The notes under the pieces are model-generated. The model was not told the DNA's origin. It made no database searches and saw nothing but the letters and a program-made list of their open reading frames with translations. Of a DNA stretch of 49,777 nt, positions 2,293 to 15,247 are shown in pieces. A program made the translations under genes and the position numbers. This stretch comes from Acidobacteriaceae bacterium. GTDB taxonomy: Bacteria > Acidobacteriota > Terriglobia > Bryobacterales > Bryobacteraceae. The stretch's first letter is position 1, and each line of letters opens with the position of its first letter. The DNA is taken from NCBI GenBank assembly GCA_019244055.1, contig JAFATG010000314.1:1-49777 (forward strand), read 5' to 3'.

Positions 2293-4335
2293 TTAATTGC
2301 GAAAGAGAATCCCTAAGTCACTGGTGATTCCATATAAGCGACTGGAGGAAGAATCGGGTTTCCAAAGTTGTCGGATGCGGAGGTTTGGCAAGGCGCTCGG
2401 CACGTGCTCCCAAGAATTTCCGGAGTCCTTCGTCTCGAATAGCTGACCATATTCAATTGCATACGCTGTGGAATTTCCGCCGTCGTAGAGCACTGCGGTA
2501 ACTGTGGAAGCGGGGATTCCACGTGAATTCGCGTACCACTTGGCGCCCCCGTCAGCCGACGAATACAAACCCAATCGTGTCGCTATTAGCAGTGGCGAAC
2601 TGGAATCAGCCGGAACTGCGATGTCATTGATGTCTGACACGGGCAACGGAAACTGCAGTTCGGACCAGTGGTCTCCGTAGTCTTTCGACGCGAATAAGCC
2701 CGTGGCGGCGCGGACAATGAGATAGCCGTTAGAGTTCGGGGCCGCATATAAAGCGATGACACCGCTCGATGCAGGGATGTCGGTAACTGTCCAGCGCTCG
2801 CCGGCATCTTTGCTGCGCAGCAGCCCGAGATCGGTCGCGGCATAAATAATGCCTTGCGTGCCGCTTTGTATCGAATAGAGATTGCGAATTTCGGTCAGCT
2901 TCACCTCGCGAACTTTCTCAATGGGCTTCGCTGGGCCTGAAGCCGTGCTGGAGGCCTTACTTGCCCGGCTGGTTGCGCGGCTTCGCGTTGTGTGACGCAC
3001 CGGGGGCGCTTTCGGCTGTTCCAAGGTCACGATGCGTACCGCCAGTGGCTTCCACGCCAGGCCCCCATCAATCGACTTGAAAATTTGATTGCTGTTGGAC
3101 GCCAGCAATGTCCGATCGTCGTTCCGCAACCCGACAATAGAGTGTAAGTGGACCCCGACCAAGCCCTGCTGGTGGAGTTGCGACCAGCTCTCGCCTCGGT
3201 CGCTACTGACGAAAATTCCTGGTGACTCACCGTCAGTTGGCTCAATCGCAACCAGCCTGCTTCCTGATTGAGTGATCGATGAAATATTCCTGTCCACGTA
3301 TCCGTGATTCGTCAGGTCAATCCGCTGCCCTCCGTCCGTGCTCTTTCCGACCCCGTCGTATTTGAGCGCAAGATACATCTCATTCGGGTTTGCGGGATCC
3401 ATTGACATTGCGTTCACCTGAGTGTCAGTCATTGTTTTCCAACTAACGCCATGATTCAATGACTTGAACAATCCAGTGGTGGTGCCCGCGTAGATGATGC
3501 TCGGGTTGAGGGGATCTTCACGGATCACGTGCGTGCGGCGTGAGGTATTTGGGATTCCCAGCAGCTTGTGCCATTCATCACCGCGATCGGAGCTCGAGTA
3601 GATTCCGCTGCAGGCGCTCGCGAGGACCGTGCTCGGATCATTCGGATCGACATAAATAGAGAACACATCGGAATCGTCAATCATGCCGGTGTGAATGGAT
3701 TGCCACGTCTTGCCGCCGTCGGTCGTTTTCCATGGTAGATGCGAGGTGCCGGCGTAAATGATATTTGGATCCTTGGTATCGAATGCGATCGCGGTGATGC
3801 CCTGCATCTCCTCGTTCTGCGTGTCCGAAGCTCGTCGCCATGATTTGCCGGAATCGTCCGATACCCAAACGCCATCCAGCGTACCCGCTGCAAAGCGGGA
3901 TGGTTGGGAGGGAGCAGCGGCTAACGACCGGACCGCGGACTTGATGGCTTTGGACCGATGCCAGGTTTGGCCGGCATCAAAACTCTCAAACAGACCGCCC
4001 TCGCCAGCGGCAATCACGCCCACCAGGTAATGATTGGCATCGGCCGGATCGAACAGCACGGAACTTATTTCGCTCAAGCTGAACTTGGGGAAGTTCAGAA
4101 GCGCCCAGTTGCCACCCGAATCCTGGCTCCGGAAGAGCAGCGAGCTCATCCCGCCGGCCAGCAAAACGTTGGGGTGTTGATGATCCAGAGCGATGGTGGT
4201 AACGGTTCCACCGAAAGGACCGGCGATCGTCCAGTCGCTAGCCGGGACGGAGTCTGCCCGCAGGAATAGGCCTGAAACCACGGCAAGGCTGGCCACAGCC
4301 GGCACAGCAACGCCTGCAATCATTTTGAGTCGCAT
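2293..4335 (-). CDS. Secreted multi-Asp-box (BNR/YCF48-like) beta-propeller protein
   Basis: The protein has 680 residues. The first 29 form a signal peptide (charged start, then a hydrophobic stretch ending near LRADS). The rest carries about thirteen copies of the Asp-box pattern S-x-D-x-G-x-x-W, for example SQDSGGNW, SFDAGQTW, STDGG and SKDYGDHW, spaced roughly 40-60 residues apart. This matches sialidase/YCF48/Vps10-type propellers, and thirteen copies suggest two propellers. A Lys/Arg/Ser-rich, low-complexity linker near residues 445-475 would divide them. No sialidase catalytic arginine triad is evident, so an enzymatic role is not supported. A binding or scaffold role outside the cytoplasm is more likely. 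The start at 4335 lacks a clear ribosome site; an ATG four codons later is possible. Confidence 0.75.
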   Translation of the reverse strand: MRLKMIAGVAVPAVASLAVVSGLFLRADSVPASDWTIAGPFGGTVTTIALDHQHPNVLLAGGMSSLLFRSQDSGGNWALLNFPKFSLSEISSVLFDPADANHYLVGVIAAGEGGLFESFDAGQTWHRSKAIKSAVRSLAAAPSQPSRFAAGTLDGVWVSDDSGKSWRRASDTQNEEMQGITAIAFDTKDPNIIYAGTSHLPWKTTDGGKTWQSIHTGMIDDSDVFSIYVDPNDPSTVLASACSGIYSSSDRGDEWHKLLGIPNTSRRTHVIREDPLNPSIIYAGTTTGLFKSLNHGVSWKTMTDTQVNAMSMDPANPNEMYLALKYDGVGKSTDGGQRIDLTNHGYVDRNISSITQSGSRLVAIEPTDGESPGIFVSSDRGESWSQLHQQGLVGVHLHSIVGLRNDDRTLLASNSNQIFKSIDGGLAWKPLAVRIVTLEQPKAPPVRHTTRSRATSRASKASSTASGPAKPIEKVREVKLTEIRNLYSIQSGTQGIIYAATDLGLLRSKDAGERWTVTDIPASSGVIALYAAPNSNGYLIVRAATGLFASKDYGDHWSELQFPLPVSDINDIAVPADSSSPLLIATRLGLYSSADGGAKWYANSRGIPASTVTAVLYDGGNSTAYAIEYGQLFETKDSGNSWEHVPSALPNLRIRQLWKPDSSSSRLYGITSDLGILFRN

Positions 4336-4424
4336 CTGTTTTATAACAAATTATATTGTGAACCGAAAATTTGTGAAGCAGGGGAGCAATATACTCCCGC
4401 GAGAAATGGGCTAAGGCTTCGTTG

Positions 4425-4453
4425 TTTACTGAAAACACAGCACTTGTTATACT
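4425..4453 (+). promoter_or_regulatory. Possible promoter of the hopanoid operon
   Basis: A TATACT -10-like hexamer at 4448-4453 lies about 13 bases before the ATG at 4467. A weak TT-rich -35 candidate begins near 4425. The -35 match is poor, and the assignment rests mainly on the -10 hexamer and its place ahead of the first operon gene. Confidence 0.3.
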
Positions 4454-4466
4454 TAAGTCAATTCCT

Positions 4467-5486
4467 ATGCCAGCCGGCCTTCTGCCTGATACCACTATTC
4501 CTCCCGATGTCTTATCCGGTGGGACCAGAGCTAAGAAAATTATCCTTCTGAAGCCGCGAGGGTTCTGTGCCGGCGTGGTTCGTGCCATCGACGTAGTCAA
4601 AATAGCGTTAGACCTCTATGGAGGCCCGATTTACGTGCGCAAGGAAATCGTGCATAACCGACACGTCGTCGACGAGTTACGCCGGGCCGGAGCCATTTTT
4701 GTCGAGGAATTAAGTGAAGTCCCGGAGGGGGCTCGGGTTATTTTCAGCGCACACGGGGTTTCACCAGCCGTGCGGACCGAAGCCAAGGAGCGGCGCCTGC
4801 AAGTGATCGACGCCACCTGTCCCCTGGTCACCAAGGTCCATTTGGAAGCAGTGCGCTTCGCCAAACAGGGCTACACGATCGTTCTCATCGGCCACCGCGA
4901 TCACGATGAAGTGATTGGGACACTGGGAGAGGCGCCTGACAGCACGATCCTCGTTTCCGATGTGAACGACGTCGATCGCCTCGACATCAAAGATCCGGAA
5001 CGTGTCGTATATCTGACCCAGACGACGCTATCGCTGGATGAGACGAAGGACATTGTCAAGCGCCTGCTGGAAAGATTCCCCAAGATCATTGGTCCCAAGA
5101 CTCAGGACATTTGTTACGCAACCGAAAACAGGCAGTTAGCCGTCAAAGCTGTGGCCCCGATGTGCCAGGCACTGCTCGTTGTGGGATCTCAGAACAGCTC
5201 AAACTCGAGGCGTTTGGTCGAGGTTTGCGAGAAGGCCGGAGTCCCGGCGTACTTGCTGGATGACAGCAGCGAAGTAGAAGCGCACATGCTTCGCAATGTC
5301 GATACCGTTGCGGTTACGGCGGGCGCCTCGGCACCTGAGCATCTTGTCCTGGAATTGATCGATCATCTCCGCACGAAGGGCTACAACGAGCTCGAAGAGG
5401 CGGAGATCAAGGAGGAGGACGTTCGATTCACGCTACCTTCCGACCTCGAAAGCTTTACTCCTCGCCTGCACACAGTGCGTACGTAA
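4467..5486 (+). CDS. ispH: 4-hydroxy-3-methylbut-2-enyl diphosphate reductase (IspH/LytB)
   Basis: IspH catalyses the last step of the MEP pathway, reducing HMBPP to IPP and DMAPP with a 4Fe-4S cluster. The three cluster cysteines are visible: GFCAGV (Cys34 from this start), DATCP (Cys118) and DICYAT (Cys216). The HGV, GHRDHDEV and SQNSSNS segments of the substrate pocket are also present. I chose the ATG at 4467, giving 339 residues. The frame is open further upstream to a TTG at 4422, but that extension adds a non-conserved tail and overlaps the likely promoter. It is the first gene of a same-strand run; shc starts about 20 bases after its stop. The order suggests C5 precursor supply is transcribed together with hopanoid assembly. 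Confidence 0.95.
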   Translation: MPAGLLPDTTIPPDVLSGGTRAKKIILLKPRGFCAGVVRAIDVVKIALDLYGGPIYVRKEIVHNRHVVDELRRAGAIFVEELSEVPEGARVIFSAHGVSPAVRTEAKERRLQVIDATCPLVTKVHLEAVRFAKQGYTIVLIGHRDHDEVIGTLGEAPDSTILVSDVNDVDRLDIKDPERVVYLTQTTLSLDETKDIVKRLLERFPKIIGPKTQDICYATENRQLAVKAVAPMCQALLVVGSQNSSNSRRLVEVCEKAGVPAYLLDDSSEVEAHMLRNVDTVAVTAGASAPEHLVLELIDHLRTKGYNELEEAEIKEEDVRFTLPSDLESFTPRLHTVRT

Positions 5487-5505
5487 TCCTGTCCGTTTGA
5501 ACGCG

Positions 5506-7449
5506 ATGAAGTCGAGCCTGCAAGTTTCAGATTCTCTCGCCGCTACTGAGGCGATGCGCAAGGCTTCGGCCGCGCTACTTCGTAAGCAATCTTCCCAAGG
5601 GTTCTGGTGCGCGGACCTATGCGCCGACAGCACGCTGGAATCCGATTACATCATGGGCGAGTTGTGGCTTCATCCGCCGGTCAATGGCGTTTGGAACCCT
5701 CCTACTCGCGACAAGATCTCGAAGGCGGTGCAAGCGATTCTCGCAAGGCAGCTCGAGGACGGCGGTTTCAACATCTATCTACACGGTCCCGGCGAGGTGA
5801 ATGCTTCCATCAAGGCGTATTTCGCCCTGAAAGTCGCAGGTATTCCGGCAGAAGATCCGCGGATGCAGCGCTTGGGAGCGCGGATTCTGGAACTGGGTGG
5901 CCTGCAAGGCGCGAACAGCTATGTGCGCACGAACCTAAGCCTTTTCGGGCTATTCCCGCGCGACGCTTGCCCGTCCATCCCGCCTGAAATAATCCTTCTG
6001 CCCTTCCATTTCGTCTACCAGATGTCCTCGTGGACACGCGCGATCGTCATCTCTTTATCGATCGTGCATGCGGCTGATCCGCGGCGGCCTGTTCCAGCAG
6101 GCTTCACACTCGATGAGCTCTTCCTTCCCGGGGCCCCCATGCTTCCCGAGCGGGATGTCCGCAGCCTTAGCTGGCGCAATGCCTTCTTGCGGCTGGACCG
6201 ATTCTTAAAAGCGTATGAAAAGCACGGGCCAAAATTTATTCGCAAGTACGCCATCCGAAAGTGCGCGGATTGGATGATTGCGCATTTTAGAGCCTCGGAT
6301 GGGCTCGGCGCGATTTACCCGTCCATGCAGTACGCCATTATGGCACTGGATGTGCTCGGGTACAAAGCGGATCATCCACTTCGAATCGAAGCCGAAGCGC
6401 AATTCAATCACTTGATGATGGACCGCGAGCGCTGCTTTTTCATGCAGCCGTGCTTTTCGCCAATCTGGGACACCGCGATCGCGGCCTTCGCGCTAGCTGA
6501 AAACGAAAATCCTCCCGAGGATGCGCTTCGCCGGACGGCAGACTGGATGCTTTCAAAGGAAGTGCGCTCGAAGGGCGATTGGTCGGTGAAGCGTCCCAAC
6601 ACCGAGCCGTCGGGCTGGGCGTTCGAATTTAACAACGACTTTTATCCCGACGTGGATGACACCGCGATGGTGCTGCTGGCGCTCGAGAAATCGCGAGCAT
6701 CCGATGCGGCGAAGCAGAAGGCCTGCGAAAAGCGCGCCATCGACTGGCTTCTCGCCATGCAAGGAAAAGACGGGGGCTGGGCCGCTTTTGACGTGGACAA
6801 CAACTGGAAGGTATTGAGCCATGTGCCATTCGCCGATCACAACGCGATGCTCGATCCATCCTGCCCTGACATTACGGGACGCGTTCTGGAGGCGCTAGTT
6901 CGCCGCGGAGTGCCCACCACGCATCCTGCAGTGCGCCGGGGAGTGCAGTACCTCCTGCGAGTTCAGGAGGCCGACGGGAGTTGGTATGGGCGCTGGGGCG
7001 TCAATTACATTTACGGCACTTTCCTGGCACTCCGCGGGCTCCGAGCTGCAGGAATGAGCGAAAACGAGCCCAGCATTCAGCAGGCTCTTGAATTTATTCG
7101 CGCGTATCAGAACCGCGATGGTGGTTGGGGTGAAAGTTGCGCGAGCTACGACGAGAATCGTTTCATCCCCAATCCGAGTACGCCTTCGCAAACGGCTTGG
7201 GCGATTCTTGCACTGTTAGCTGGGGGCGACACGCGAAGCGAGAGCCTTTATAACGGCATCGATTATCTGATTAGCACCCAGCGCCCGGACGGCTCCTGGA
7301 ACGAGGATTACTGCACCGGCACCGGTTTCCCGCGGGTCTTTTATCTCGCCTACACGGATTACCGCAATACCTTCCCGTTACTCGCGCTGGCTGAGTTCAG
7401 AAAGGCTGTAGGCGGGTCAAAAGAAGAAGCCGCGGCAGCATTCGCCTGA
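5506..7449 (+). CDS. shc: Squalene-hopene cyclase
   Basis: This membrane-associated enzyme cyclises squalene to hopene and hopanol. The protein is about 647 residues, normal for the family. It carries the catalytic DVDDTA motif (about residues 382-387) and several QW repeats such as QLEDGGFN, QGKDGGWAAF, QEADGSWYGRWG and QNRDGGWGE. The aromatic-rich C-terminal end (GTGFPRVFYLAYTDYRNTFP) is typical. The frame is open from a TTG at 5497; the ATG at 5506 gives almost the same protein and is preferred. It lies between ispH and hpnA, with short gaps on both sides. Family and reaction are secure from the motifs. The product spectrum cannot be told from sequence. Confidence 0.97.
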   Translation: MKSSLQVSDSLAATEAMRKASAALLRKQSSQGFWCADLCADSTLESDYIMGELWLHPPVNGVWNPPTRDKISKAVQAILARQLEDGGFNIYLHGPGEVNASIKAYFALKVAGIPAEDPRMQRLGARILELGGLQGANSYVRTNLSLFGLFPRDACPSIPPEIILLPFHFVYQMSSWTRAIVISLSIVHAADPRRPVPAGFTLDELFLPGAPMLPERDVRSLSWRNAFLRLDRFLKAYEKHGPKFIRKYAIRKCADWMIAHFRASDGLGAIYPSMQYAIMALDVLGYKADHPLRIEAEAQFNHLMMDRERCFFMQPCFSPIWDTAIAAFALAENENPPEDALRRTADWMLSKEVRSKGDWSVKRPNTEPSGWAFEFNNDFYPDVDDTAMVLLALEKSRASDAAKQKACEKRAIDWLLAMQGKDGGWAAFDVDNNWKVLSHVPFADHNAMLDPSCPDITGRVLEALVRRGVPTTHPAVRRGVQYLLRVQEADGSWYGRWGVNYIYGTFLALRGLRAAGMSENEPSIQQALEFIRAYQNRDGGWGESCASYDENRFIPNPSTPSQTAWAILALLAGGDTRSESLYNGIDYLISTQRPDGSWNEDYCTGTGFPRVFYLAYTDYRNTFPLLALAEFRKAVGGSKEEAAAAFA

Positions 7450-7461
7450 TCCTTACCAACA

Positions 7462-8436
7462 TTGCCCACCACTTTGGTAACCGGAGCCAGCGGGTTTCTG
7501 GGCTGGCATGTCGCTCGTTTGCTCAGCACACGCGGCTACCGCGTACGCGCGCTATGCCGGCCCACAAGCCGGATTCGCGAACTCGAGGTAGAACCGGTCA
7601 CAGGCGACCTGCGCGAGCCTGATTCTCTCGCCAAAGCCGTTTCAGGCTGCGACCTAGTGTTCCACGTGGCAGCCGATTACCGCCTTTGGTCGAAAAACCC
7701 GCAGGATCTCTATCAGTCAAACGTCGAGGGAACGCAGAATCTGATGCAAGCCGCCGAAGACGCGGGCGTTGAGCGGATCGTGTACACCAGTACAGTGGGC
7801 TGCATCGGAATGCCGCGCAATCGGGAGGGCGATGAGAACACACCCATCTCCATCGAAGACTTGGCCGGCCACTACAAGCGCTCCAAGTGGCTGGCGGAAC
7901 AAGTTGCACTTGAAAAAGCGCGCGCCGGACTGCCGGTGGTGATCGTGAATCCGACTGCGCCGGTAGGCGATCACGATTGGAAACCGACTCCGACCGGCAA
8001 GATCATCGTGGATTTTCTGCGCGGCAAATTGCCGGCGTTTGTCGATACAGGCCTGAACATAGTGGATGTTCGCGACATTGCACACGGTCATCTGCTGGCC
8101 GCGGAGAAAGGCCGCATTGGGGAGCGATATATTCTCGGCTGCGAAAATCTCACACTCGAACAGATCCTCTCGCGCCTCGCCGCTATGAGCGGAAGGCCCG
8201 CGCCAAAGTTGAAACTCCCGTACGCTGTCGCTTATGCCGCCGGCGTGGTCACAACATCGTGGGCGAACCTGACCGGTCATTCCCCTGTTGCGCCGCTCGA
8301 AGGCGTCAAAATGGCTCGCAAGAAGATGTTCGTCAGCCACGCGAAGTCTTCTCGCGAACTGGGCTTTTCACCGGGACCGGTAACCGGTGCTCTAACTCGC
8401 GCAATCGAATGGTTTCGCGCAAATGGGTATTGTTAA
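7462..8436 (+). CDS. hpnA: Hopanoid-associated sugar epimerase/dehydratase family protein HpnA
   Basis: The 324-residue protein belongs to the extended short-chain dehydrogenase family. It has an N-terminal NAD(P)-binding TGASGFLGWHV motif and the catalytic Tyr-x-x-x-Lys as YKRSK near residue 136. The substrate region carries the NPTAPVGDHDWKPTPTG signature seen in HpnA proteins. HpnA is regularly found beside shc, but its reaction is not firmly established. The start is a TTG at 7462, 12 bases after the shc stop. It fits the NAD-binding motif exactly, and no earlier in-frame start exists. It is probably co-transcribed with shc and hpnG. Confidence 0.9.
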   Translation: MPTTLVTGASGFLGWHVARLLSTRGYRVRALCRPTSRIRELEVEPVTGDLREPDSLAKAVSGCDLVFHVAADYRLWSKNPQDLYQSNVEGTQNLMQAAEDAGVERIVYTSTVGCIGMPRNREGDENTPISIEDLAGHYKRSKWLAEQVALEKARAGLPVVIVNPTAPVGDHDWKPTPTGKIIVDFLRGKLPAFVDTGLNIVDVRDIAHGHLLAAEKGRIGERYILGCENLTLEQILSRLAAMSGRPAPKLKLPYAVAYAAGVVTTSWANLTGHSPVAPLEGVKMARKKMFVSHAKSSRELGFSPGPVTGALTRAIEWFRANGYC

Positions 8437-8445
8437 GGGGCACGA

Positions 8446-9198
8446 ATGGCTATCCTGTACGTTGCCTCTGAAGCTGCGGAGCTAAAAACTCTCGCCAATG
8501 CGTTGACGGCGCTTCGAAAATTGAAATGGCCCATCGATTATGCCTATGAAGGGATTTGGGAGAGCCGTCGCTTGCTGCTGGCGGCCAATGGGGCGGGTCC
8601 GAAGCTGGCGGCGCACGCGGTGGAAGTGGCCATTCGCGCCATGATGCTCGCCGAGCTCTCTTCTTCAAAGCTGGAAGCAGTGGTCAGCACTGGCTGGTGC
8701 GGCGCAGTTGATCCGCACCTTCGAGAGGGTCAGATCGTGGCGGCGAGCCAAGTGATCGATCCTACGACAAACGAGACTTTCGATTGCGCCAAACTCCCGA
8801 CGGCTGATTCATTCGTCGAAGGCGTTCTTGTTTCACAAGATCGAATCGCGATCGATGCAGCCGAAAAGCAGCGGCTCTCGAGCGGCGGTGCAATCGCGGT
8901 CGATATGGAATCGGCAGGTGTCGCAATGCGCACGCGGAAGGCGGGTCTGCCCTTTTACTGCATCAAGGTCGTTTCTGATCGCGCGGACGAATCATTTCCA
9001 TTCGATCTAAACCAAATGCGAACTCACGAAGGCCGCATAGCTCGTGGGAAAATTGTAATTCAAGCCCTTACGCATCCTAATCAATTGCCATTGCTGTTCC
9101 GGTTAAAGCGGCGAACCGAAGAGGCCGCGCGGGCTTTGGGGGAGTTTCTTGTCAGTTGCCGGATCACTTCGGAACCAGGACCTAGCGAGCCTGCATAA
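8446..9198 (+). CDS. hpnG: Adenosylhopane nucleoside phosphorylase-type enzyme HpnG
   Basis: The 250-residue protein looks like a nucleoside phosphorylase (PNP/UDP family). The TGWCGAVDP segment lies near residue 83. The VDMESAGVA segment contains the Met-Glu pair that contacts the ribose in this family, and it is followed by a KVVSDRADES motif. In hopanoid clusters this protein (HpnG) removes adenine from adenosylhopane on the way to ribosylhopane and bacteriohopanetetrol. An AAGGGG ribosome site sits six bases before the ATG. It follows hpnA by nine bases and precedes the first zinc dehydrogenase by 37 bases. HpnH, which makes adenosylhopane, is not in this window. Confidence 0.88.
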   Translation: MAILYVASEAAELKTLANALTALRKLKWPIDYAYEGIWESRRLLLAANGAGPKLAAHAVEVAIRAMMLAELSSSKLEAVVSTGWCGAVDPHLREGQIVAASQVIDPTTNETFDCAKLPTADSFVEGVLVSQDRIAIDAAEKQRLSSGGAIAVDMESAGVAMRTRKAGLPFYCIKVVSDRADESFPFDLNQMRTHEGRIARGKIVIQALTHPNQLPLLFRLKRRTEEAARALGEFLVSCRITSEPGPSEPA

Positions 9199-9235: not shown

Positions 9236-10288
9236 ATGCTCGCCGCCGTATACACCGGCTCCGCCCGAGTGGAGATTCAGACAGTTGAGACTCCGGAGAT
9301 CGGGCCCAGTGAAGTGCTGATCCGGGTAGAGAGCTGCGGTATCTGCCACACCGATCTAAAAAAGATTCAATACGACCTGCTTGCGCCGCCCCGCATTTAC
9401 GGGCATGAAACGGCCGGCGTGGTTGTGGCGGTAGGCGAGACTGTAGGGAAGTATGTTCCCGGTGACCGCGTAATCGTTTTTCACCACATTCCCTGCCAGG
9501 ACTGCTTTTATTGCCAGCGCCGGTTGTATGCGCAATGCGCGTCATACAAGAGAGTGGGCGTGACCGCTGGGTTCGAGGCGGCGGGTGGCGGGTTCTCACA
9601 ATACGTTCGCGTAATGGACTGGATCGTCGAGCGCGGTATGGAGAAAATTCCAGAGGGCGTATCCTTCGATCAGGCGTGCTGGGTGGAACCGGTAAATACC
9701 TGCCTGAAGGCTATCGAACAGCTTGCGCTCTTTGAAGGCGATGTTGTCGCAGTGCTCGGGCAGGGGCCAATTGGACTGGTCTTTACGATGCTCGCGAAGC
9801 GAACGGGCGCGACGGTCTTCGCAACAGACACAATTGGATTCCGTCGGCAAATCTCCGCACGCTTTGGCGCCTCCGCCCATGATCCTCGAGATGCAGACTT
9901 CGAACAGGCAATTCGAGCAGCAACTCAGGGCCGCGCCGCAGATGCCGTGATTGTAGCGACTAATGTTCGTGGATTGGTGGATCAAGCGATTCGCGTCTCT
10001 CGGCCAGGAGCAAAGATTTGCTTGTTCGCCCAGACTTCCGCCGCCGAGCGCATCGATATCTCCGGAGCGGATATCTGTGTCGGGGAGCGAATTCTGTTTG
10101 GCTCCTATAGCGCGGACACCGACCTGCAAACCGAATCTGCGAGACTCGTTTTTAGCGGCGAGCTGCCGCTTGAAACTTTGATTTCGGACCGCATACCGCT
10201 CTCTGAGATCACGCGCGGTATAGAAACGGCTTTACACCCCAGCGAGCGATCGCTCAAGGTAGTGGTTCATCCGCAGGAGCCTTCCTGA
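9236..10288 (+). CDS. Zinc-dependent medium-chain alcohol dehydrogenase 1 of the hopanoid operon
   Basis: This 350-residue protein is a medium-chain zinc dehydrogenase of the sorbitol/threonine dehydrogenase type. Catalytic zinc ligands are seen in CGICHTDL and GHETAG. The four structural-zinc cysteines are in CQDCFYCQRRLYAQC, and the coenzyme-binding loop is GQGPIGL. The frame is open back to a TTG at 9149 that would overlap hpnG. The ATG at 9236 starts exactly at the conserved N-terminus, so I chose it. The stop overlaps the next start by one base (TGATG), implying translational coupling of the two dehydrogenases. Substrate is unknown. The place between hpnG and hpnC makes a hopanoid side-chain aldehyde or alcohol a reasonable guess. 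Confidence 0.88.
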   Translation: MLAAVYTGSARVEIQTVETPEIGPSEVLIRVESCGICHTDLKKIQYDLLAPPRIYGHETAGVVVAVGETVGKYVPGDRVIVFHHIPCQDCFYCQRRLYAQCASYKRVGVTAGFEAAGGGFSQYVRVMDWIVERGMEKIPEGVSFDQACWVEPVNTCLKAIEQLALFEGDVVAVLGQGPIGLVFTMLAKRTGATVFATDTIGFRRQISARFGASAHDPRDADFEQAIRAATQGRAADAVIVATNVRGLVDQAIRVSRPGAKICLFAQTSAAERIDISGADICVGERILFGSYSADTDLQTESARLVFSGELPLETLISDRIPLSEITRGIETALHPSERSLKVVVHPQEPS

Positions 10289-11355
10289 TGGTTGCGCAAA
10301 ATATGCAAGCCGCCGTGCTGTATGGCAGAGAGGACGTGCGGCTCGAGTCCGTCCCGGTGCCTGCCGTAGGATCCGGCGAACTGCTTGTTCGCGTTCGCGC
10401 GGCGCTGACGTGCGGAACAGACATTAAAGTTTTCCGTCGCGGCTATCACGCCAAAATGATCACACCGCCTGCGCTATTCGGTCACGAGATGGCCGGCGAC
10501 ATCGCAGCGATCGGGGAGGGAGTCAGCGGATTTGAGGTGGGGCAACGAGTAGTCGCGGCGAACTCCGCGCCTTGCGGCGTTTGCTTCTTCTGCCGCCGCC
10601 GCCAGCCGAATCTCTGTGAGGATCTTCTGTTCAATAACGGAGCTTATGCCGAGTACATACGGCTTCCGAGGCGCATCGTACAGAAGAACACGTATGTTAT
10701 TCCGGATCACCTGGACTATCGTGATGCCGCTCTTATCGAGCCACTCGCGTGTGCGGTCCGGGGTCTTGATGAGAGCCAAACCAAGCCGGGAGACACGGTT
10801 GCCGTTCTCGGCCTGGGACCGATCGGACTGATGTTTGCACTCCTGGCGCGCTGGGCGTACGGCGCGCGTGTGATAGCAATCGCGCGCCGAGTGGATCAGA
10901 TTGATCAGGCCATGCTTCTGGGCGCGCAAGAATCCATTCTTGCTAACAGAGAGTCGCCGCTCAATGATCAGCCGGCTTTAATTGCGGCACTGAAATCAGC
11001 TACGGGAGGCCGCGGCGCCGATGTCGTTATCGAAGCAGTCGGCCAACCGGAAGCTTGGGAACTCGCGACGCGCCTCGTGCGCAAGGGCGGTGTGATTAAT
11101 TTTTTTGGCGGCTGTCCGGCTGGAACCAAGGTTTCCCTCGAGACTTCTTTGCTTCACTATTCGGAGATCACCTGTAAAGCCAGTTTCCACCACACGCCCG
11201 CTCATATCCGCCGATCACTCGATTTTCTGGCGGATGGAACTGTGACGGCAAAGCATCTGGTCAATCACGAAGAGCGGCTCAGCGCCCTACCTCAGGTACT
11301 ATTCGATCTGGCGCATCGCCGGAACGGACAGATCAAGGCCGCGATTATTCCCTAG
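10288..11355 (+). CDS. Zinc-dependent medium-chain alcohol dehydrogenase 2 of the hopanoid operon
   Basis: A second medium-chain zinc dehydrogenase of 355 residues, coupled to the first through a one-base TGATG overlap. It shows the catalytic ligands CGTDIK and GHEMAG, the structural cysteines CGVCFFCRRRQPNLC, the coenzyme loop GLGPIGL, and GGRGADVVIEAVG in the Rossmann part. It is clearly diverged from its neighbour, so this is not a recent tandem copy. The pair may act as two subunits or as two successive steps. It keeps a Thr-Asp after the first cysteine like sugar and polyol dehydrogenases. Role in hopanoid side-chain maturation is inferred from operon position only. Confidence 0.88.
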   Translation: MVAQNMQAAVLYGREDVRLESVPVPAVGSGELLVRVRAALTCGTDIKVFRRGYHAKMITPPALFGHEMAGDIAAIGEGVSGFEVGQRVVAANSAPCGVCFFCRRRQPNLCEDLLFNNGAYAEYIRLPRRIVQKNTYVIPDHLDYRDAALIEPLACAVRGLDESQTKPGDTVAVLGLGPIGLMFALLARWAYGARVIAIARRVDQIDQAMLLGAQESILANRESPLNDQPALIAALKSATGGRGADVVIEAVGQPEAWELATRLVRKGGVINFFGGCPAGTKVSLETSLLHYSEITCKASFHHTPAHIRRSLDFLADGTVTAKHLVNHEERLSALPQVLFDLAHRRNGQIKAAIIP

Positions 11356-11364
11356 GTTTGGAAA

Positions 11365-12279
11365 GTGCCCGTAGCTCGTTTACAACCGAAAGAATACATT
11401 CGCAACGGACCGCCGGAGACCACGCGATATTCGCGGAAAGAAGCTCTGGAGTATACGCGCTGGCTGGCGACACATCATTACGAAAATTTTCATGTTGTGA
11501 GTGCGTTGCTGCCCAAAAAGCTGCATCAGCACTTTTACAACGTCTACTCATTCTGCCGGTGGGCGGACGATTTGGGCGACGAAATTGGGAACACTCAGGA
11601 GAGCTTGCGTCTGCTGGCTTGGTGGCGTACTGAACTTCAAGCTATGTACCGGGGCGAGACATCCCATCCCGTATTTGTGGCTCTTGAAGAAACCGTCCGG
11701 GGCTACGGTATCCCCGCGGAACCTTTCGATCGGCTGATCTGTGCCTTCGAACAAGACCAGACGGTCACGCGCTATCGCAATTTCGAGGAACTGTACGGAT
11801 ATTGCCTGAATTCCGCGAATCCGGTCGGGCACCTCGTTCTATATCTCTGCGGGTACCGGGACACGGAACGCCAACGCTTCTCCGATTTCACCTGCACCGC
11901 TCTCCAGCTCGCGAATTTTTGGCAGGATGTGATCGTCGATCTTGAAAAGGGCCGCATCTATCTGCCTCTCAACTTGTTTGACAAGCACGAATACAGCATC
12001 GATGATCTGAACGCCCGCCGTTTTGACGAACGATTTAAGAGAATGATGCGAGAAGCCGTCGATATCGCAAACGATCTCTTTCGGAGAGGACTGCCGTTAA
12101 TCGAAATGGTGAATCGCCGGTTGGCGCTCGACCTCGAGTTGTTCAGCCGCGGCGGAATGAAGATCCTCGACAAGATCCGGCGACAAAACTACAATGTTCT
12201 AGATCGGCGCCCGTATATCTCAAAGGTGGAACGCGCCAGTATTCTTCTTCGATGCCTCCCGCGAGTGCTCCCGTTCTAA
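11365..12279 (+). CDS. hpnC: Squalene biosynthesis protein HpnC
   Basis: The 304-residue protein belongs to the trans-isoprenyl diphosphate synthase, head-to-head family. The first Asp-rich motif is WADDLGDE (residues 67-73). The second is NFWQDVIVDLEKGRIYLP near 180-197, typical of HpnC. HpnC converts presqualene diphosphate to hydroxysqualene in the HpnCDE route. The start is a GTG at 11365, nine bases after the upstream stop, and no better ATG exists near the conserved N-terminus. Its 3' end overlaps the hpnD start by 28 bases, so the two are translationally linked. Confidence 0.93.
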   Translation: MPVARLQPKEYIRNGPPETTRYSRKEALEYTRWLATHHYENFHVVSALLPKKLHQHFYNVYSFCRWADDLGDEIGNTQESLRLLAWWRTELQAMYRGETSHPVFVALEETVRGYGIPAEPFDRLICAFEQDQTVTRYRNFEELYGYCLNSANPVGHLVLYLCGYRDTERQRFSDFTCTALQLANFWQDVIVDLEKGRIYLPLNLFDKHEYSIDDLNARRFDERFKRMMREAVDIANDLFRRGLPLIEMVNRRLALDLELFSRGGMKILDKIRRQNYNVLDRRPYISKVERASILLRCLPRVLPF

Positions 12280-13133
12280 ACTCTGGTAGCGTTGCGGCTT
12301 CCTATCGCTTCTGCCGTGAAGTTGCGAAGCGTCGCGCCAAGAATTTCTACTACTCTTTCTTGCTGCTCGAAAAGCCACAGCGGGATGCGATGTGCGCTAT
12401 CTATGCCTACATGCGGCATTGCGATGATCTGAGCGATGAACCCGCTACGAACGACAAATCGGAACTTCGCGAAAGCATCGCGCGGTGGCGGATGAAGCTC
12501 AATCGTGTCCTGGATGGCGAAATGGCAGAGGATCCAATCTGGCCCGCGTTCCATGACACGGTCGAACGCTACAAGATCCCGCATCGCTATTTTCATGAAA
12601 TGATTGACGGCATTCTTTCCGACATCGAACCGCAGCAGGTGCGAACGTTCTCAGATCTGTATCGCTACTGCTATCGGGTAGCTTCGGTGGTCGGCCTTAC
12701 GGTCATTCATATTTTTGGATTTCGCTCGACCAGCGCCCTACTGCTTGCGGAAAAGTGCGGAGTCGCGTTCCAATTAACGAATATCGTTCGTGATATCCGG
12801 GAAGATGCCCTGATGGGCCGCGTCTATGTTCCGCGTGAGGACCTGGACCGGTTCGGAGTCACTCTTGACCAGCTTCGTTCCGGCTCGGAGGACAAAGCCT
12901 TTCGCGAGTTGATGAAATTCGAGGCCACCCGCGCACGCTCTTACTACGATGAATCCGCGCCGCTGCTGGAATTAATCGAGCCGAAAAGCCGCCGCTCGCT
13001 TTGGGTTTTGCGGCAAATCTATCTTCGACTCCTATCACGAATTGAGAAAGCGGACTACTCTGTTCTCTCGCGCCGCGTCAATGTTCCTAAGCGGACGAAG
13101 ATCGCACTTCTTGGTTGGGCGTTTTTGCGGTAA
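12252..13133 (+). CDS. hpnD: Presqualene diphosphate synthase HpnD
   Basis: The 293-residue protein is the partner of HpnC and condenses two farnesyl diphosphates to presqualene diphosphate. The Asp-rich motifs are HCDDLSDE (residues 57-63) and QLTNIVRDIREDALMGRVYVP-type near 175. An RAKNFYYSFLLL N-terminal signature is also present. The ATG at 12252 lies inside the end of hpnC. It is the last gene of the plus-strand operon: about 390 bases of non-coding sequence follow, then a gene on the other strand. The third enzyme of the route, the flavoprotein HpnE, does not follow as it does in many clusters. Confidence 0.93.
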   Translation: MPPASAPVLNSGSVAASYRFCREVAKRRAKNFYYSFLLLEKPQRDAMCAIYAYMRHCDDLSDEPATNDKSELRESIARWRMKLNRVLDGEMAEDPIWPAFHDTVERYKIPHRYFHEMIDGILSDIEPQQVRTFSDLYRYCYRVASVVGLTVIHIFGFRSTSALLLAEKCGVAFQLTNIVRDIREDALMGRVYVPREDLDRFGVTLDQLRSGSEDKAFRELMKFEATRARSYYDESAPLLELIEPKSRRSLWVLRQIYLRLLSRIEKADYSVLSRRVNVPKRTKIALLGWAFLR

Positions 13134-13519: not shown

Positions 13520-15247
13520 CTATGGCTTGATGCCGAATGGGCCGCGTATCATTGCTGAATGCGAGCTTGGACGAAGTTGCAGTTGAACGGTCTGCAGCGT
13601 ACGTTCAACCCAGCAAAGATCCTCATCAGAAAGCGCAGTATAGTGCTGCTCGGTACGGATTATCCTTTCTCTGTCTTGAGCGCTCAACAGAGCGAGAGCT
13701 TCCGCGACGGCACGCTCATATTGCTGCTGCGTGGGGAGTCGCGCGGGAGCGTTCGTGAAGCTAGCTTCGACAGCTTTCACGAGAATTGAAGCAAATTGTC
13801 TTTCCCCCGTTGAATCCAGATGAGTTTCAATGAGCTTAAGAAGATCGAGCGATCCATTCGGTTTCAAATTCTCCAGACCTGCAACGCGTTCTCCCGAAGT
13901 TGATGCAGCCGATGAGATGCTGCGAATTAAGGTGGCGCACGTCTGGGTATCAACGGTATTTAGAACGTCTGAAATAATCCGCGCCCGTTCATAAAGTAGC
14001 TCGTCATCAAGACTCGGCAGGCCCTGCGCGATGCGTGATGACATCTCACCCAGTTCTTCGTCAGAGAGGGATTCAAACCAGGCGCGAACGCGAGTGTTTT
14101 TGGCGATTTCGGCGCTGAACGATTGGAGGAACGGGTCCGACGATTCGGCTAACTGTTGGACTCGCGTCGTTGAAAGAATATGTAGCCCGCGGAAGTCCTT
14201 GTACAGTTCCAGGATGGTCTGGGATTTGCTAACGAGCATGAGCCCCGCTATGAAAGCGGAAATTAGCGCAACGGCTGTCAGGCAGCAGCGCAAAAGCGAC
14301 GGGCCTTTGGGATCGATAGGATAAAAAGATTGCATGGCTTTATCGAACGATGCCCCCAGTTTTTCGTTTGCAGGAAGGGCGACCATGATGCCGCGCCAAC
14401 TGGAGTCGAAATAAACGACAGCTTTGACGTCCAGCTCCCGATTGGTTGCTCCCTTCGCGGGTTTTTCGTTGTGGTCCGGGGGCCAGTTCGGCAGGCCGAA
14501 AGGAAACAGATGCTTGACCTCTTTAGCGAAGCGTTCATATCCTGTTTGGTCGAAAGGGATTAAGAGGATGAGCTGTTCGGGACGAGTCTGACTTACCGCG
14601 GTTTCAATCTCCCAGAGAAGCCCTCCGCTTGTACCCGCCCGGATGACCGTGAAAATCGCGCGCTTCATAAGCGTCGAAACTTCACCCTTCCACTCATGAT
14701 CCGAGAACTGCAGACGAGTGGCATCGAGCTTAGGCAAGACCTCGGCGGGCTGTCCGACCGCCAAAACAGGCCCCACGGCGTTCAGCACACGAACTACTTG
14801 CTCCTCCTTAGTGGTTGGTGTCCAAATCCCGAAAGTTCCTGCCAATATGGATGTCGGCTCTGCGGTGACCGGGTCATCTCGAAAGGAGCGCAGATATAGA
14901 ACCGGCGGGCGCGGGTCGTGACCAAGAGTTTCGCGGATTGAGGACAGAATCATCCTCCGTCCACGGTTGTATATCGAGGCGCCAGAAAGAGCCAGCAAGT
15001 AGCCGAAACCTGCGAGGGATCCTCCGGCCAACCCAATCTTGATACCGTTGTCAATGACAGAGCGCCAACCACCGCCTGGCGGCCTTAGGTCAATGAGTCC
15101 GAAAGATATTCCAAAAGCGCCGATAAGGCCGAGTGATGAGCCCCAGACGAGCAGGCAAAAGCCAGTGATTTTCAGAATCAGCGCCCGAAGCTCGTGCAAT
15201 CTGGCTAGACTCAGGCGGGGACGGGTTGTTGTTTGCTCGATCGCCAT
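13520..15247 (-). CDS. Uncharacterised membrane protein with YLRSFRDD-type cytosolic domain
   Basis: The 575-residue protein has two predicted membrane segments near residues 22-54 and 66-92. A globular part follows with the motif PPVLYLRSFRDD (residues 114-125), then an EEQ-VV-GPV-LAVG stretch and a WKGEV-LMKRAIFTVIRAG-SGGLLWEIE block (about 186-214). A third membrane segment lies near 318-340, and the C-terminal part is helical. The middle part alternates strands and helices and ends strands in small or acidic residues, like a Rossmann-type or TIR-like fold. That is a guess from pattern, not a family hit. I do not know the function. It stands alone between convergent and same-strand non-coding gaps, with no visible partner. 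Confidence 0.65.
   Translation of the reverse strand: MAIEQTTTRPRLSLARLHELRALILKITGFCLLVWGSSLGLIGAFGISFGLIDLRPPGGGWRSVIDNGIKIGLAGGSLAGFGYLLALSGASIYNRGRRMILSSIRETLGHDPRPPVLYLRSFRDDPVTAEPTSILAGTFGIWTPTTKEEQVVRVLNAVGPVLAVGQPAEVLPKLDATRLQFSDHEWKGEVSTLMKRAIFTVIRAGTSGGLLWEIETAVSQTRPEQLILLIPFDQTGYERFAKEVKHLFPFGLPNWPPDHNEKPAKGATNRELDVKAVVYFDSSWRGIMVALPANEKLGASFDKAMQSFYPIDPKGPSLLRCCLTAVALISAFIAGLMLVSKSQTILELYKDFRGLHILSTTRVQQLAESSDPFLQSFSAEIAKNTRVRAWFESLSDEELGEMSSRIAQGLPSLDDELLYERARIISDVLNTVDTQTCATLIRSISSAASTSGERVAGLENLKPNGSLDLLKLIETHLDSTGERQFASILVKAVEASFTNAPARLPTQQQYERAVAEALALLSAQDRERIIRTEQHYTALSDEDLCWVERTLQTVQLQLRPSSHSAMIRGPFGIKP

Follow-up and report, generated by a model that had tools for sequence, protein, structure and literature searches.

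Hopanoids are widely used as molecular fossils, and according to passages of PMC12583986 the enzyme that converts ribosylhopane to bacteriohopanetetrol (BHT) was still not established in 2025. In the scheme given there, HpnH joins adenosine to hopane and HpnG strips off the adenine to leave ribosylhopane. We found no assignment of the reductase in the open-licence literature (most subscription papers were outside the search), including passages of PMC8079986, PMC5358736, PMC10301674, and PMC8537080. For acidobacteria, passages of Sinninghe Damste et al. (2017, PMC5462960) describe two genes of unknown function, ug1 after hpnG and ug2 before hpnC. The product of ug2 is a Zn-binding alcohol dehydrogenase of ~350 amino acids; it is stated to be present in all acidobacteria of subdivisions SD1 and SD3, and elsewhere in the same text SD3 clusters are stated to be without it. 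Here we consider a tandem pair of zinc-dependent medium-chain dehydrogenase genes, which we term ADH1 and ADH2, on contig JAFATG010000314.1 of an Acidobacteriaceae bacterium (GCA_019244055.1; "the window" is the whole stretch analysed, 49,777 nucleotides). An earlier sequence-only reading of the window had supposed that the reductase is not generally assigned, and that still holds. By position and product ADH2 is ug2, and by position ADH1 is ug1. In passages of PMC5462960, ug1 and ug2 are separate genes of different clusters, and the product of ug1 is not stated. The genes themselves were already in print; what we add is their pairing, the split in their cofactors, and their tracking of hopanoid genes.

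ADH1 (9236-10288, + strand, 350 amino acids) and ADH2 (10288-11355, + strand, 355 amino acids) lie between hpnG and hpnC, and in the sequence TGATG (10286-10290, +) the TGA of ADH1 (10286-10288) and the ATG of ADH2 (10288-10290) have one base in common. The start of ADH1 at ATG 9236 agrees with the starts of its homologs, and its longest open reading frame (ORF) reaches back to TTG 9149. Both genes are complete, and both products score above the gathering thresholds of PF08240 and PF00107, that is, they have the GroES-like N-terminal domain and the Rossmann zinc-dehydrogenase domain of the medium-chain dehydrogenase/reductase (MDR) family. Their identity is 33% over the aligned part. The description of two diverged zinc dehydrogenases with a one-base overlap is borne out. 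Confident structure models, used for fold and structural neighbours only, have MDR enzymes as their best PDB matches. Each protein also has the catalytic Cys, the His-Glu, the further Glu, and the four structural-zinc Cys of zinc-dependent MDR enzymes: C37, H57, E58, E151, and C87/C90/C93/C101 are invariant in 29 ADH1 sequences, while H66, E67, E151, and C96/C99/C102/C110 are invariant, and C42 nearly so, in 28 ADH2 sequences. (We take the roles of these residues as zinc ligands from knowledge of the family.)

The two proteins differ in their cofactor sites. In these dehydrogenases, an acidic residue at the end of strand beta-2 of the Rossmann domain usually goes with NAD(H), and a non-acidic residue together with a basic one goes with NADP(H). 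All 110 distinct ADH1 orthologs have an acidic residue here. Of 100 distinct ADH2 orthologs, 98 do not (the exceptions, G035 and L194, have Asp), and all 100 have Lys or Arg directly after this position. So, we predict that ADH1 (the type-1 half of the pair) uses NAD(H) and that ADH2 (the type-2 half) uses NADP(H), and because the sites differ, the two enzymes probably do different jobs. The motifs CGTDIK and GHEMAG, which had been taken for signs of a polyol dehydrogenase, turned out to be common zinc-dehydrogenase motifs that occur in ADH2 only and are not diagnostic for polyols. Conserved stretches that are specific to ADH2 are RGYHARMI and FHHTP. Neither protein reached the cut-off of any NCBIfam MDR equivalog (IolM, Tdh, idonate and galactitol-phosphate dehydrogenases, and others); the best was IolM, at 141 and 153 bits against a cut-off of 450.

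The pair is linked to hopanoid genes more than chance would allow. We searched 198 Acidobacteriota genomes (completeness of at least 85) for HpnG, HpnH, ADH2, ADH1, squalene-hopene cyclase (SHC), HpnA, and HpnC. Orthologs were separated from the remaining matches by gaps in E value (ADH1, E ≤ 1.3e-94, next match 2.2e-56; ADH2, E ≤ 1.8e-113, next match 1.0e-85) and were found in 31 genomes for ADH1 and 32 for ADH2. ADH1 was present in 31 of 53 genomes with SHC or HpnH and in none of the 145 others; ADH2 was present in 31 of 53 and in one of the 145 (G121). (SHC and HpnH go together: 51 of 52 SHC-positive genomes are also HpnH-positive.) Counted by family label, ADH1 was in 5 of 13 HpnH-positive families and in none of the 52 that were not (p = 1.6e-4 by a one-sided Fisher test), where the 65 families are a minimum, with genomes lacking matches counted in part. 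Finally, none of the 29 genomes with an over-cut-off HpnC but without SHC or HpnH had either dehydrogenase; therefore, the pair tracks hopanoids, not squalene. HpnG could not serve as a marker in this survey: no genome (0/198) had a match over the TIGR03468 cut-off, and matches at E ≤ 0.001 are not diagnostic, as 12 of 14 control genomes have one. These scores show that HpnG has diverged in acidobacteria, where it is assigned in part by position.

Gene neighbourhoods give the same picture. A profile scan with the ADH1 alignment over 84,980 species genomes matched at least 592 stretches (564 relatives), of which the best 80 were kept. These loci and the 198 genomes are not independent sets, because some members are shared (L154 is on the G168 contig and L163 is in the G176 genome). 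By title, 78 of the 80 are from Acidobacteriota. The other two are L141, from Chthonomonadales (Armatimonadota), and L210, from "Omnitrophota", and the genomes of both encode HpnH, HpnA, and a squalene cyclase. At least one of HpnA, HpnG, HpnH, SHC, HpnC, and HpnD was found in the fetched flank of 77 of the best 80 loci (the exceptions are L138, L141, and L145), and HpnA, HpnG, and HpnC were each found in 62. The pair thus does not occur mainly without hpnG; in the other direction, 22 of 52 HpnH-positive genomes are without ADH1. ADH1 and ADH2 are in tandem in 72 of the 80. An overlap of 1 or 4 bases is possible for 51 of these 72 pairs, and 68 are within 40 bases, a count that took the possible ATG or GTG nearest the ADH1 stop and so favours short gaps. 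The eight loci without the tandem (four from Edaphobacter and four from other acidobacteria) all keep SHC, HpnH, HpnA, and HpnG with ADH1. In four genomes the pair is split (G034, G119, G167, and G190), with ADH1 after hpnG and ADH2 elsewhere before hpnC-hpnD (~11 kb away in G119). In four genomes of family f28 (G035, G103, G168, and G184; f28 loci L125, L126, L134, and L135) the order is hpnA-ADH1-ADH2 with no intervening hpnG.

The pairing itself seems to predate its association with hopanoids. Further type-1/type-2 tandem pairs, which we call X and Y (L117, L118, L122, L123, and L124), have no hopanoid gene within the fetched stretches, which is why we think that the pairing came first. In a tree of 68 sequences, ADH1, X1, and Y1 fall on one side (SH-aLRT 95) and ADH2, X2, Y2, and homologs from Rhodococcus and Rhizobium on the other (support 80). 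ADH1 forms one group (98), in which the protein from the window joins those of a genome from the same family and of Candidatus Solibacter (Solibacteraceae, Acidobacteriota); the ADH2 group is less firm (78), and the tree does not settle where X2 branches inside it. Long branches also drew a warning from the program. A recent tandem duplication is ruled out by these separate clades, by the 33% identity, and by two other paralogs in the same genome that resemble ADH2 more than ADH1 does. The cofactor site of X2 is of NADP type, and those of Y2 and the Rhodococcus protein are without the NADP signature.

Among proteins of known structure, the best match of the ADH2 profile is the NADP(H)-dependent ketose reductase of the silverleaf whitefly (PDB 1e3j, 1.3e-57), which is also the best fold match of the ADH2 model, at 28% identity. 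(The single ADH2 sequence ranks it second, with 4ej6 slightly better.) In the alignment, the cofactor loop of 1e3j resembles that of ADH2 in that the acid is missing and an Arg is present. ADH2 also has an EP motif, but at ~28% identity it is no more than a possible member of the ketose and polyol reductases, which have a Glu-type third zinc ligand. However, 1e3j is an insect enzyme of the sorbitol-dehydrogenase type for free sugars. A putative zinc-binding dehydrogenase from Sinorhizobium meliloti (4ej6/4ejm), which is ~30% identical to the two proteins and has no assigned function, came first in the PDB when either sequence was searched singly and when the ADH1 profile was used; by fold, ADH1 is nearest to 4cpd.

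In a collection of 72,556 plasmid records searched with ADH2, the best match was WP_242323970.1 on Rhodococcus opacus pLPS8 (47% identity, 302 bits; the next listed match had 194). It clusters with the type-2 half in the tree, but neither a partner dehydrogenase nor any gene annotated as a hopanoid gene is nearby. Its neighbours are a DeoR/GlpR regulator, a major facilitator superfamily transporter, an FGGY kinase, and a class II aldolase. The kinase is best matched by the xylulokinase model and the aldolase by that of ribulose-1-phosphate aldolase, both below cut-off. This setting appears to be of a pentitol or pentulose type, which suits an enzyme that would act on a ribose- or ribitol-like side chain, although it is no proof.

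We propose, tentatively and with somewhat less than even confidence, that in this lineage ADH2 is an NADPH-dependent ribosylhopane reductase and that ADH1 acts on the same side chain. In Terriglobia-type Acidobacteriota, HpnH and then HpnG would supply ribosylhopane; ADH2, with NADPH and zinc, would reduce its open-chain aldehyde (C-35) to the primary alcohol of BHT; and the NAD-linked ADH1 would act on a hydroxyl or a carbonyl of the same C5 side chain. Here the substrate, the direction of the reaction, the carbon on which it takes place, and the way in which the two enzymes share the work are inferences. The NADP(H)-type site and the polyol-reductase relatives of ADH2 are as would be expected of a side-chain reductase, and with the tracking of hopanoid genes they lend weight to the sequence-only reading, which had named the pair as candidates for this step. 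In the five HpnH-positive f31 genomes without ADH1 and ADH2, the ADH2 relative X2 likewise has an NADP-type site. The reading could hold for this lineage only: a general side-chain gene should be present wherever HpnH is. With the pair in just 30 of 52 HpnH-positive genomes, a role as the general ribosylhopane reductase is excluded, and any answer obtained from ADH1 and ADH2 will hold for one lineage. Within these bounds, we offer the pair as a candidate that is useful and can be tested, and not as a discovery; the comparison names two specific proteins, each with a predicted cofactor, in a group that has cultured members.

Several observations weigh against this proposal. First, sorbitol-dehydrogenase-type enzymes usually work on C-2, not on a terminal aldehyde, and the Rhodococcus relative has an acidic, NAD-type site. 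Second, besides the 22 HpnH-positive genomes without ADH1, 17 of the 52 are without both ADH2 and X2 (a class that we defined after the tree and the motif were known). One genome without the pair, G028, has HpnI adjoining hpnG, and HpnI decorates BHT; therefore, this genome probably makes BHT by other means than the pair. Chloracidobacterium thermophilum is likewise reported to make BHT and to be without ug2 (passages of PMC5462960, citing Costas 2012b). Third, the pair can be found without detected SHC or HpnH, or unlinked. Among 11 odd-looking genomes of the 80 scan loci, chosen for their oddness and checked for HpnH, six were HpnH-positive, and the other five (L138, L145, L180, L188, and L197) also had no squalene cyclase match. 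Four of these are metagenome-assembled genomes (MAGs) that hold the pair without detected SHC, HpnH, or over-cut-off HpnA (L138 and L145 from Vicinamibacteria, L180 and L188 from Bryobacterales); in L197 an over-cut-off HpnA adjoins the pair. In G121, which is without SHC and HpnH, ADH2 is present along with an X1-X2 pair, and in G061 the pair is unlinked and adjoins a proline-dehydrogenase gene. (Breaks in conserved residues in L138, L145, and G121 are confounded by divergence.) Finally, co-occurrence within one lineage owes something to common descent, and HpnA is more widely spread than the pair.

That last point leads to the main rival, which we consider unlikely: HpnA, a short-chain dehydrogenase, could be the ribosylhopane reductase, and the ADH pair could make a later or alternative modification of the side chain. 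HpnA (TIGR03466) is, like the ADHs, an oxidoreductase-type protein beside hpnG without an assigned reaction, but it belongs to the short-chain dehydrogenase/epimerase family and has a far wider distribution, being over cut-off in 50 of 52 HpnH-positive genomes. It was suggested for the missing reductase step in passages of PMC5462960. Also, it adjoins HpnG in seven of the eight fetched loci that are without ADHs (L107-L114). We looked for a replacement dehydrogenase in these loci, and none of the 600 ORFs matched any of six dehydrogenase references at 1e-3 (unrelated reductases were outside this search); seven ORFs from seven of the loci, most of them near hpnG, gave NCBIfam matches to isopentenyl diphosphate isomerase, HpnI, 3-hydroxy-3-methylglutaryl-CoA reductase, a squalene-synthase-like protein, a decarboxylase, and a TonB-type protein. 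On the other hand, G054 is HpnH-positive and has no HpnA match at 1e-80. A different kind of exception is G007 (rated 100% complete; contig C102, 10,676 bases, L116), which keeps IspH, SHC, and HpnH and has no match, at the limits used, to HpnA, HpnG, ADH1, ADH2, or HpnC. The contig extends ~2.4 kb beyond HpnH with no hpnA there. Either the genes that complete the side chain were lost together, or the assembly has a gap.

A second possibility, to which we give a low probability, is that the two enzymes work as a redox pair: NAD-linked ADH1 would oxidise a side-chain hydroxyl and NADPH-linked ADH2 would reduce the resulting ketone from the other face, which would give an epimerised stereoisomer of BHT without net redox change. 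Pairs of NAD- and NADPH-linked enzymes such as IdnD/IdnO epimerise sugar acids in this way, the opposite cofactor signatures are conserved in ADH1 and ADH2, and the type-1/type-2 pairing recurs in three subtypes (hopanoid-linked, X, and Y) with differing surroundings. However, opposite cofactors are not a fixed rule, because Y2 is without the NADP signature and, in three f31 genomes, X2 has no adjoining X1. A related idea, which seems to us just as doubtful, is that an ancient oxidoreductase module with an NAD half and an NADP half was recruited to hopanoids, where a relay on the ribose-derived chain would set its stereochemistry or redox state. If so, the bacteriohopanepolyol of these Acidobacteriota would be a distinct one and could be used as a biomarker for the group.

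The pair might instead serve isoprenoid or squalene synthesis (hpnC, hpnD, and hpnE) or something unrelated, with its position a matter of history. ADH2 is often immediately 5' of hpnC, and passages of PMC5462960 associated ug2 with hpnC, hpnD, and hpnE; the same source cites HpnC, HpnD, and HpnE as functioning together when expressed in E. coli, which speaks against this reading. Also, the two Bryobacterales MAGs without SHC or HpnH keep the order IspH-ADH1-ADH2-HpnC-HpnD-HpnE, with HpnE over cut-off, where the related clusters L216 and L217 have SHC, HpnH, HpnA, and HpnG between IspH and ADH1. No remnant of the missing genes was matched below E 0.05 in L180 or L188. But ADH2 has the highest ratio of nonsynonymous to synonymous substitution rates (dN/dS) of the six genes in the comparison of these two MAGs (0.46, against 0.09-0.26 for the other five), while three comparisons between clusters with hopanoid genes still in place gave it a dN/dS of 0.06-0.16. 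Both copies have lost P152, which is next to the zinc ligand E151 and is ~99% conserved in other orthologs. On few substitutions, this is suggestive of relaxed constraint on ADH2. With neither gene in any of the 29 HpnC-positive genomes without SHC or HpnH, and despite the two MAGs, a role in squalene synthesis is improbable, and the squalene link proposed for ug2 becomes less likely.

The rest of the locus is on the same strand, in the order IspH-SHC-HpnA-HpnG-ADH1-ADH2-HpnC-HpnD. It begins with IspH, for isoprenoid precursor synthesis (4422-5486, +; NF002189, 454.3 bits, cut-off 444), and SHC (5497-7449, +; TIGR01507, 639.2 bits, cut-off 431.1). The gene 3' of SHC is the short-chain dehydrogenase HpnA (7462-8436, +; TIGR03466, 473.1 bits, cut-off 367.65), and the radical-SAM protein HpnH of this genome is on a separate contig (G000:C207:9406-10353); both correct an earlier picture of the locus. 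The HpnG-like nucleoside phosphorylase/hydrolase, which would convert adenosylhopane to ribosylhopane (8446-9198, +; PF01048), is assigned partly by position because its TIGR03468 score is below the curated cut-off (128.6 bits against 187.1). After ADH2 come HpnC, for squalene synthesis (11365-12279, +; TIGR03464, 327.3 bits, cut-off 250.45), and the presqualene diphosphate synthase HpnD (12252-13133, +; TIGR03465, 265 bits, slightly under the cut-off of 278.6). A tblastn search of the window with the L180 HpnE had no match, and the next long ORF after HpnD (13520-15247, -) had no Pfam or NCBIfam match.

In L138, close to the pair, which is unlinked in this Vicinamibacteria genome, positions 3320-6490 encode a resistance-nodulation-division transporter that is weakly HpnN-like (128 bits, cut-off 752) and has a LolA-like end. 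Immediately downstream of hpnH in the genome of the window (contig C207) is an ORF of 136 amino acids (L106, 8831-9241) with no NCBIfam match; it is probably the ug3 of PMC5462960, and an ORF of similar look follows hpnH in G007 (L116, 8452-8880).

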